From Bacteroidales bacterium (GTDB lineage: Bacteria; Bacteroidota; Bacteroidia; Bacteroidales; F082): a stretch of 64,000 nt of DNA. The notes beneath the pieces were generated by a model. It saw only the letters and a program-made list of their open reading frames with translations, had not been told where the DNA came from and made no database searches. Shown one piece after another: positions 60,598-62,618 of this stretch. The stretch's first letter is position 1, and each line of letters starts with the position of its first letter. A program made the position numbers and the translations under genes. The stretch lies in assembly GCA_016936505.1 (NCBI GenBank), contig JAFGXS010000056.1:1-64000 (forward strand), given 5' to 3'.

Positions 60598-61467
60598 TCA
60601 TTTCGTTTGCGAATCAAGATATTTAAACACTACTGCTAAATCTTCCCTGCCCATACCTGCCTGTTTGGCTTTTGCAAAAATTTCTTTCGCAAGATTGGCC
60701 ATAAATAAGGGCTGTTCTTTTTCATAAGCTGAAATTGCTGCCAGATGTAAATCTTTAAGCATCCACTCCAAAGGAAACTGTAGTTCATACTCCCCCGTCG
60801 AAAAAGCATTAATTTTTCCTTTTATGTAGGGAGGAGTAACCACCAAATCGGGTAATGTCTGTAAAAGAAATTCGCGTGACAGTCCAAGCTTCTCGCCAAG
60901 CAAAACCGCTTCAGAAAATACCACCACCGACTGTGCCAGCATCATGTTGATAATCATCTTAAAAGCAGCACCCTGCCCTATTTTCCCCATGTAAAAGGTT
61001 TTCTTCCCCATCATCTGAAAATAAGGTTCCAAGAAGCTTCCATTTTGTTCATCGGTTCCCGCCAAAAACAACAACTCTGCTTTTTCTGCCTGAGGCTTTG
61101 AGCCTGAAACAGGAGCATCTAAGAACCTGATGCCTGCTTCATCAGCTTTGACTTTGGCTTCCATGCTAAATGAAGGATTTACCGTTGTGCTGTCCACCCA
61201 GCAAGCTCCCTTTTTCATAAACTGCAAGGCTTTTCCTTCTCCCCAAAACATATCAGATACCACTTCCGGAGTTGAAAGCATGCTAAAAACCAAATCAGCT
61301 TCTTTTACAGCTTCAGCAACTGAACCTACCACCTTTGCTCCTTTTTCTTTCAAAGGTAAACCTGCCTCGGGTGTACGGTTATAAACTGTAAGAGCTACAT
61401 TGTTCTCCAATAAATGGCCTGCCATCCGGCTCCCCATGATGCCCAAACCTATAAATGCTACTTTCAT
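60598..61467 (-). CDS. beta-Hydroxyacid dehydrogenase family NAD(P) oxidoreductase
   Basis: About 289 aa from the ATG at 61467 (MKVAFIGLGIMG); the in-frame ATG at 61488 adds seven residues of no family value. The Rossmann motif GLGIMGSRMAGHL near residue 7 is followed by FSMLSTPEVV, the substrate motif LDAPVSGSKPQAE near 117 and the catalytic Lys in GQGAAFKMIINMM near 165. Family of 3-hydroxyisobutyrate / glyoxylate-succinic-semialdehyde reductases. The substrate cannot be chosen. Confidence 0.9.
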   Translation of the reverse strand: MKVAFIGLGIMGSRMAGHLLENNVALTVYNRTPEAGLPLKEKGAKVVGSVAEAVKEADLVFSMLSTPEVVSDMFWGEGKALQFMKKGACWVDSTTVNPSFSMEAKVKADEAGIRFLDAPVSGSKPQAEKAELLFLAGTDEQNGSFLEPYFQMMGKKTFYMGKIGQGAAFKMIINMMLAQSVVVFSEAVLLGEKLGLSREFLLQTLPDLVVTPPYIKGKINAFSTGEYELQFPLEWMLKDLHLAAISAYEKEQPLFMANLAKEIFAKAKQAGMGREDLAVVFKYLDSQTK

Positions 61468-61580
61468 TGCTGTATTTTTTTTTTGCAAAGTTAAAATTCA
61501 TCCTGCGACACTTTCTTCAAAAAATCTTAAAATCTGCTATATCTTTCTTGCTTTCATTAATATCAAAGTTTGGATCGTAA

Positions 61581-61811
61581 AAAAGAAACTTTCTATTGCT
61601 AACTAAGGACTATTTATCTATTATTCGAATCTTTATATCTGTAATTCGAATCTATTAATCGACTATACGATACTATTTAATCATTATTAGAATCTATATG
61701 ACGGTTATAAGATACTTTCTATCGATAAATAGTCACAAAATGATGATAATTGATATCTTCATATTGCGAAATAGATACTTTATGTCGTGTAATCGAATTA
61801 AAGTAAAAGAA
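61581..61811. repeat. Array of ~11 degenerate direct repeats in 21-bp register
   Basis: Consecutive 21-bp units share a 10-bp core at fixed spacing, starting at 61581, 61602, 61623, 61644, 61665, 61686, 61707, 61728, 61749, 61770 and 61791. Clear cores are ATTCGAATCT (twice), ATACGATACT, ATTAGAATCT, ATAAGATACT and AATAGATACT, consensus AT[TA][CA]GA[TA][AT]CT; the outer units are decayed. The 11-bp spacers also share a weak TATC[GT] pattern. Two helical turns per unit put all cores on one face. All reading frames contain stops, so it is not coding. It ends 66 bp before the HTH gene start. Confidence 0.75.
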
Positions 61812-61877
61812 AGATACGCAGAGCGATGAACAACTTTTTGTGTAACTTTACGGAGATAATCCCAAAAACCTACACTT

Positions 61878-62242
61878 ATGTTAAAATACAATTTTGAACG
61901 TATTTTCCGTGCCCGTGTGCCATTGAAAAACCCTATAGATTCCTTGTGAAATCAGTCATTTACAGACAATTGGCTACCGCCATTCACAACAACAAGGCCG
62001 CCACCATGAAGCTCTCAAACCTTGAGCGCTTATGCACAATGCTGCACTGTACACCCAACGATGTAATGGAGTGGATACCCGACGACAAGGACAATCCAGC
62101 TGAGGATCACCCGCTGAATGAATTAAAAAGAAACAACAAGGTGTTCGATATTACGCGCACTTTAAATTCCATTCCCTTGAGCCAGCTCGACAGGATTGAA
62201 AAAGCGATTAATGACGAACTGGAAAACATGAAAAAAGAATGA
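61878..62242 (+). pseudogene. Frameshifted small HTH (XRE/Cro-like) regulator
   Basis: The ATG at 61878 starts MLKYNFERIFRARV and runs into a stop at 61947. In the -1 frame the natural continuation reads AIEKPYRFLVKSVIYRQLAT, then LSNLERLCTMLHCTPNDVMEW and DHPLNELKR. Together these give a typical small HTH_26/XRE-type regulator of about 121 aa, common in Bacteroidota (KPF/YxFLVKxG and LCxxLxCTPNDxxEW motifs). One missing base near 61917 explains it; adding a G after CGTG restores the frame. A GTG at 61946 gives a 98-residue remainder that lacks the first helix. Real mutation or sequencing error cannot be told apart. Confidence 0.7.
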
Positions 62243-62287
62243 CTGTGAAACAGAGGTGGGATGAGAAAAATAGGGAGATATTTCTAA

Positions 62288-62618
62288 CTATTTAGCACTC
62301 TTTTGAGTTTTCTTTAGAATATAGAAATTTTCAAAAATGCCTAAGACTTTATAGTGTTCGCTTTTTATAAAAGTTTCTTTTCCGTCTTCAAAAAAAAAAC
62401 ATGTTTATATTGATTTCGTAGATAGATAATATCAAATAATTATTTTGTCTTCCATAAGTGACAAATGGAGCTGTTTTTGCACTTTTAAAGAAAATATTTG
62501 GGGTTTAAGTAATTACCGCAAGACTTTTTTCAAATGTTTTTGGTGAAGGATTTGTTAAAATTAGAATTAAAACTATGCCTGCAAGGGTTATTAAAACATA
62601 CTTAATAATTATTTTCAT
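62288..62618 (-). pseudogene. Decayed small membrane protein gene, two frameshifts
   Basis: Starts with MKIIIKYVLITLAGIVLILI, then LTNPSPKTFEKSLAV, a signal-anchor plus 'TNPS..F' motif typical of a small unassigned (DUF4359-like) family. The frame is lost after about 37 codons. A second frame continues NIFFKSAKTAPFVTYGRQNN, then YLILSIYEININ, up to a run of ten T. Past that run a third frame reads EDGKETFIKSEHYKVLGIFE and NFYILKKTQKSAK. The parts add up to one protein of about 108 residues with two single-base lesions, one in the T10 run. Starts in an ATGA overlap with the upstream remnant. Confidence 0.6.

Follow-up and report, generated by a model that had tools for sequence, protein, structure and literature searches.

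The window analysed here is a 64-kb stretch of the genome of a Bacteroidales bacterium (G000), and it carries a gene for a small helix-turn-helix (HTH) regulator of the HTH_26 type at 61878..62242 on the plus strand. The reading frame of this gene is broken: its first approximately 13 codons lie in a frame other than that of the in-frame remainder (61919..62242, plus strand), which shows 63% identity to the intact orthologue of a sister genome (G007) and aligns with that relative from residue 14 onward. A pseudogene and an assembly error would look alike, and the break near 61918 may be either; the array described below is well kept in this frame-broken copy. With 36.2 bits (cut-off 22), the 98-aa piece that starts at 61946 is a match to Pfam HTH_26 (PF13443); the G007 orthologue scores 41.3 bits, and all 44 of the 44 aligned family members match at E <= 0.01. 

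The fold model of the protein has a pLDDT of 91.7, and its top Foldseek matches are SaPI2 Stl, VanUg and CylR2, which have a Cro/C1-type HTH fold; only one Foldseek match reaches E <= 0.001, and by sequence Stl gives no significant match (E 0.32). The divergent neighbour (60598..61467, minus strand) is similar to 3-hydroxyisobutyrate dehydrogenase and is not a fixed partner, because other genes separate it from the HTH gene in G007. A search of 61001-62400 for known RNA gave a single miRNA-family match (E 0.21; 22.7 bits, where the gathering score is 76), and a search of nine proteins against NCBIfam and PHROGs gave one match far under the cut-off and one family of unknown function.

Upstream of the HTH gene lies an array whose strong part consists of nine contiguous 21-bp units in exact register (61610..61798, plus strand), with the consensus CTATATATCGATTATTAGAAT. 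Each unit agrees with this consensus at 12–18 of the 21 positions, and positions 1, 2, 6, 14 and 18 are conserved in eight or nine of the nine units. Four weaker units extend the array upstream without any change of register (61526..61609, plus strand; 10–11 matches of 21), and the next 21 bases downstream (61799-61819) are already background, with 4 matches of 21. The first-pass annotation had described about eleven units with a core at 61623-61790 that fades at both ends; its 21-bp register stands, but its limits have to be replaced by those given here. Its distance of 66 bp to the gene likewise holds only for an array that ends at 61811, since the last good unit ends at 61798 and leaves 79 bp to the start codon (ATG at 61878). 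The array is AT-rich and non-coding, as had been proposed, with 25% G+C and stops in all six frames (5, 1 and 8 in one set of three, 6, 10 and 3 in the other), and the -7-like box TAACTTTA is indeed present at 61843..61850 (plus strand), 35 bp before the ATG and inside a family-wide peak of TAnnTT at -40 to -31.

The periodicity itself had been claimed on the understanding that an equal signal in shuffled sequence would refute it, and autocorrelation and tandem-repeat search agree in its favour. When 61560-61830 is shifted by 21 against itself, identity is 0.492, whereas 2000 dinucleotide-preserving shuffles of the region average 0.303 (sd 0.028; z 6.7) and none of them gets so high. Identity is also high at shifts 42 (0.49) and 63 (0.52), and no shuffle equalled the maximum over shifts 3–59. 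In 210-base windows the array is the top signal at shifts 10–60 across the whole 64 kb, and Tandem Repeats Finder calls a repeat with a period of 21 at 61615-61699. Column maxima summed over the nine units come to 133 of 189, compared with 91.5 (sd 4.1) in shuffles (0 of 500).

With the intact G007 orthologue as query, we covered the genus (12 genomes), the order (295) and the phylum (395), with many draft assemblies among them, and added one named contig (L002) from an Ignavibacteriales MAG, a group which NCBI places in the Bacteroidota/Chlorobiota group. The yield was 89 non-redundant genes. Of these, 68, the window's included, are of the query's kind and encode proteins of about 120 aa in which HTH_26 is combined with a conserved CTPND block and a helix at the C-terminus; the other 21 belong to a shorter sister family and served as control. 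Two of the 68 (L054, L043) had too little upstream DNA, and the 66 testable loci come from about two dozen genomes. When significance is defined as a value that none of 200 shuffles reaches, a scan of periods 12–90 finds a significant upstream array in 61 of the 66, again including the window. The best periods are 21 (24 loci), 42 (20), 63 (4), 84 (8), 41 (3), 82 (1) and 24 (1), so that 60 of the 61 are a multiple of 21 (56) or of 41 (4), and periods of 21, 41 and 42 bp all lie near an integral number of helical turns. The same scan is significant downstream in 5 of 67 cases, one of them at 21, and upstream of the sister family in none of 21. A narrower scan of periods 15–30 gives 50 of 66 upstream, 49 at exactly 21, with five downstream (two at 21, L053 and L040) and 1 of 21 before the sister genes (L067, period 21). 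As a background, shift-21 arrays precede 7 of 233 other ORFs of at least 150 aa in genome G229, 7 of 244 in G315, 4 of 228 in G181 and 0 of 194 in G000.

The departures from this pattern are few. No significant array was found in the wider scan at L013, where the gene is truncated, or at L093; L059, L041 and L056 have 21 as best period and missed the threshold (4, 1 and 1 of 200 shuffles reached the value). The period of 24 at L106 rests on merely 303 bp of upstream DNA, and among five loci found later by profile four are at exactly 21 and one (L195) is best at 29. Some loci have a 42-bp unit (L085, L057, L091, L011) or a 41-bp unit (L042, L092, L081, L103, from two genomes of one genus) without visible 21-bp halves. 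The window's genome holds five copies of the gene, with significant arrays at the window and on contigs C19, C73 and C10 and none at the truncated copy on C58, and G007 holds four copies with four significant arrays; the other ten searched genomes of the genus have no family member at E <= 0.001. The C58 copy (L013:2835-3077) is truncated at its 5' end and has no detectable array, and in G007 the locus with a matching neighbourhood (L011, on C11) has an intact copy with a 42-bp array. Paralogs and sister species are not independent samples and the counts therefore overstate independence, though the loci come from many families. Viral homologs in IMG/VR have a significant period of 21 in only 1 of 56 cases, and the search for PADLOC defence genes gave two weak matches, each to one member of 44.

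The internal structure of the arrays was averaged over 49 of them. Excess identity is +0.284 at shift 21, +0.288 at 42 and +0.247 at 63, and at the remaining shifts from 2 to 62 it is zero or below, save +0.002 at shift 3 (error 0.007); no sub-period of 7, 10 or 11 is seen in the 49 arrays, the excess at shift 7 being -0.010. In the 20 arrays that are long enough, the in-phase excess is still +0.239 at ten units, whereas one to three bases off phase it is between -0.034 and +0.013, and no phase drift is visible out to ten units. The similarity between units is thus about the same whatever their distance, which is expected of sites under common selection more than of a recently grown satellite. 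A neutral satellite, extended by replication slippage or unequal exchange and bound by no protein, would account for the near-identical copies in some arrays (0.97 in L014, 0.95 in L201), for copy numbers that vary between orthologues, for the abundance of bystander 21- and 42-bp arrays in G229 and G315, and for an array near surE (L217) that was not seen at the orthologous place in G315 and G128 (periods 15–30). It would not explain why nearly all best periods are tied to 21 or 41, why similarity hardly declines with distance, or why arrays are rare downstream and before the sister HTH genes, and we consider it very unlikely. Seven codons also make 21 bp, and the arrays could in principle encode a heptad-repeat peptide. 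At least one of the six frames is open in 22 of the 49 arrays, and 35 frames are open against 22.4 expected; every frame is interrupted in the other 27, the window's included, and a 41-bp period does not preserve a reading frame. Taken over the whole family this idea is already contradicted, and we give it almost no credence.

The arrays have a median length of 11.3 units and end at a median of 83 bp before the ATG. TAnnTT is the core of the consensus -7 element of Bacteroidetes, and at the 49 loci it occurs 25 times at -40 to -31, 13 times at -50 to -41 and 0–8 times in the other 10-bp bins, although the full TAnnTTTG is found within 110 bp at only 13 of 49. From the peak at -40 to -31 we infer that the arrays abut the promoter. 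This position bears on the possibility that the arrays are titration sponges or chromosome-organising sites (centromere-like or nucleoid) bound by the HTH protein, with promoter effects secondary. The length and strict phasing of the arrays would suit such a role, as would the presence of arrays elsewhere in HTH-rich genomes, and omega/parS of plasmid pSM19035 is, in the part of the source available to us, centromere and operator at once (PMC9499535). Against it, the arrays stand directly upstream of the promoter and have no recurrent partner gene: among ORFs of at least 80 aa, mostly within 1.5 kb on each side, no gene cluster adjoins more than five of the 68 loci. Moreover, the paralogs compared in G229, G315 and G181 match each other's units only weakly if at all (in G229 the best of 78 pairs has z 3.3). 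We regard this alternative as rather unlikely.

Units differ between paralogs and are common to close relatives. The first-pass annotation had named absence of the register in close relatives that keep the HTH gene as a refutation, and the register is found before the G007 orthologue, whose 21-bp unit resembles that of the window (0.64 forward, 0.35 reverse); neither of its two conditions for refutation is thus fulfilled. For 14 pairs with at least 70% HTH identity, unit similarity is 0.69 forward and 0.39 for the reverse complement, and over 53 arrays unit and HTH similarity are correlated in a Mantel test (r 0.28, 0 of 5000). The signal stems from close relatives: Spearman correlation over all pairs is 0.00, and among pairs with less than 50% HTH identity no correlation can be seen. 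In a regression on four protein segments, the recognition region (residues 27–42) and the C-terminal part are predictive of unit similarity (0 of 2000 permutations each) and the two other segments are not. Because the C-terminal part is an equally good predictor, these data do not distinguish specificity from common descent. Four loci from four genera with a near-identical recognition region (L030, L031, L033, L035) have a CG core at a constant unit position. Palindromic units are found in 3 of the 53 HTH arrays, about chance; for a dimeric XRE repressor such a lack of symmetry is uncommon.

What is observed is the array with its phase and its place before the promoter, the near-constant link to one gene family and the co-divergence among close relatives. 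In our judgement the HTH_26 protein encoded downstream probably has the array as its private multimeric operator, binds it cooperatively and controls its own promoter; binding, cooperativity and regulatory sign are inferred. The first-pass annotation had allowed for a multimeric operator, an iteron-like element or bent DNA, and the comparative evidence (the G007 array, the arrays across the family and the tracking of unit and HTH) favours the operator. Each 21-bp unit would be one asymmetric binding site, and about 9 to 16 protein units would sit head to tail along a single face of the helix, since 21 bp are two turns of B-DNA; the C-terminal helix presumably assists their side-by-side assembly. 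The resulting nucleoprotein filament would abut the gene's own -7-type promoter and could make its expression a steep, self-referring switch, with repression as the simplest sign, which is not shown. Because the unit sequences of paralogs differ, several copies in one genome need not cross-talk. The whole looks like an undescribed module of self-regulation, and no description of this architecture was found in the open-licence literature. If true, this scattered family of bacterial regulators would have its operator attached and recognisable from sequence alone, and each protein would be paired, without experiment, with about ten examples of its own DNA site, which would be a naturally occurring resource for work on HTH recognition codes and on orthogonal cooperative switches.

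Several known systems come near to this arrangement. Iterons of plasmid origins are direct repeats of about 20 bp in helical phase beside the gene of their binding protein, and the HTH arrays are similar in repeat length, in helical phase and in adjoining the gene of a DNA-binding protein. They differ in that the HTH protein has only about 120 aa and is no Rep initiator. A plasmid iteron was rejected for the array: there is no match in 72,556 plasmids, no Rep protein, and 15 copies lie on a single 4.3-Mb contig (G229:C1); nor was any match found that would indicate a plasmid or phage origin. Bent DNA is disfavoured by locus-specific conserved positions in the units, many of them G or C, although curvature itself was not computed. 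XRE/HTH_26 repressors such as SaPI2 Stl have the Cro/C1-type fold in common with the protein, and our searches turned up no described member that has a long phased array of its own. Omega (ParB-pSM) of pSM19035 is the nearest well-studied analogue. As far as the accessible sections of the publication go, this small DNA-binding protein has 7–10 contiguous non-palindromic units over the promoter of its own gene, and high affinity requires two or more of them (PMC9499535). Omega is a ribbon-helix-helix protein with a 7-bp unit and is plasmid-borne together with ParA. The module described here departs from an omega/parS-type partition operator on each count: the protein is a Cro/C1-type HTH by Pfam and fold, the arrays have period 21 and none at 7, the plasmid collection gave no match, and no recurrent gene cluster that might supply ParA is present (no ParA model was run). 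Direct repeats of the heptamer TAACTGA are known from Beggiatoaceae, Cyanobacteria and five Bacteroidetes, where they are intergenic and often upstream of start codons, as tandem repeats are here (PMC4679880). They have one fixed 7-bp sequence, lie mostly within several nucleotides of the start codon in the main genome, and no linked regulator gene is named in the portion of that paper available (PMC4679880). The HTH arrays, on the other hand, have locus-specific 21-bp units without a 7-bp subperiod and lie upstream of the promoter.

Arrays also occur away from HTH genes. Counted before merging of overlapping hits, non-coding arrays at shifts 21 and 42 number 7 and 16 per 400 kb in G229 and 5 and 14 in G315, against a mean of 0.10–0.15 at other shifts. 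G181 has 4 and 3 per 400 kb, two of the 4 being 7-bp repeats; G000 has 0 and 1 in 304 kb; G718 has one at each shift, that at 42 being a TG run; and G005 and G199, in which no HTH family member was found, have none at shift 21 or 42. The sampled stretches contain no HTH family member by profile. Two hits (L234, L236) were left out, as they score 1.0 at every shift, are probably masked runs and vanish when N is scored neutrally. The two 7-bp cases in G181 (L294:9456 and L307:19066) have units of the AGTTATG and ATGGGTT types, which score at 21 too and recall the TAACTGA heptamers. Scattered arrays are seen at L203–L222 in G229 and at L249–L268 in G315, and L208 and L217 have a common unit. When 18 non-HTH 21-bp arrays are compared with 28 HTH arrays, most match no HTH unit; the exceptions are L212 with L079 and L084 (z 5.7 and 3.5) and L215 with L107 (z 5.2), which among so many comparisons can only be called suggestive.

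A second family is associated with such arrays. Nine proteins near arrays were picked by eye, and seven of them match DUF6261 (PF19775), a family of unknown function, above the cut-off, while two do not. Of the order's 295 genomes 32 contain DUF6261, and among the 16 genomes that have an array-type HTH gene 10 do (hypergeometric 2.8e-7); here the 295 genomes are assumed to be identical to those of the HTH survey, and the 16 were tallied by hand. Of 29 regions (from the loci L313–L342) whose frames were confirmed by the DUF6261 profile (L335 was included, and L337, with 246 bp of upstream DNA, was left out), 22 have a significant upstream array, with periods of 41 (12), 42 (5), 43 (1), 82 (1) and 83 (3), and two are significant downstream, at unrelated periods. 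The units are palindromic (p < 0.05) in 19 of the 22, unlike those of the HTH arrays. The AlphaFold model of DUF6261 is an all-helical bundle (pLDDT 88.3) with no PDB match at E <= 0.001. The notion that DUF6261 arrays are targets of the HTH proteins was rejected, as the best match of six such arrays to HTH units (z 3.8) is unconvincing.

These observations raise the question whether the arrays are bound by one or more other factors with effects on several gene families, in which case the HTH protein would merely be one of the regulated products. An unrelated family also has upstream arrays, and 34 of 40 merged bystander arrays in G229, G315 and other genomes are near neither family, that is, 17 of 23 with period 42 and 17 of 17 with period 21, the other six of period 42 lying near a DUF6261 frame. 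For this reason we have slightly lowered the weight of the own-operator reading and slightly raised that of the rival. A single common factor would nevertheless impose a common unit, whereas the unit tracks the HTH sequence among close relatives, and the DUF6261 arrays differ from the HTH arrays in both period (41–43) and symmetry, with no clear match to an HTH unit in the six compared. Control by other factors thus remains unlikely in our view, and the private operator remains the probable reading. More tentatively, and with less than even confidence, one can imagine an undescribed class of modules that each consist of a gene plus a private phased array, with at least two unrelated families (HTH_26 and DUF6261), many mutually orthogonal copies per genome and, in some genera, similar intergenic arrays across the chromosome for which no protein partner is known so far. 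Together they would form a regulatory or chromosome-organising system addressed by helical phase, and DUF6261 would represent a novel type of array-binding protein in it; if true, the arrays would be a strong genomic clue for this family. In the window's own genome, the 42-bp array of two DUF6261 genes (L344 on C91 and L345 on C21) follows the gene on the 3' side, and there is no upstream array.
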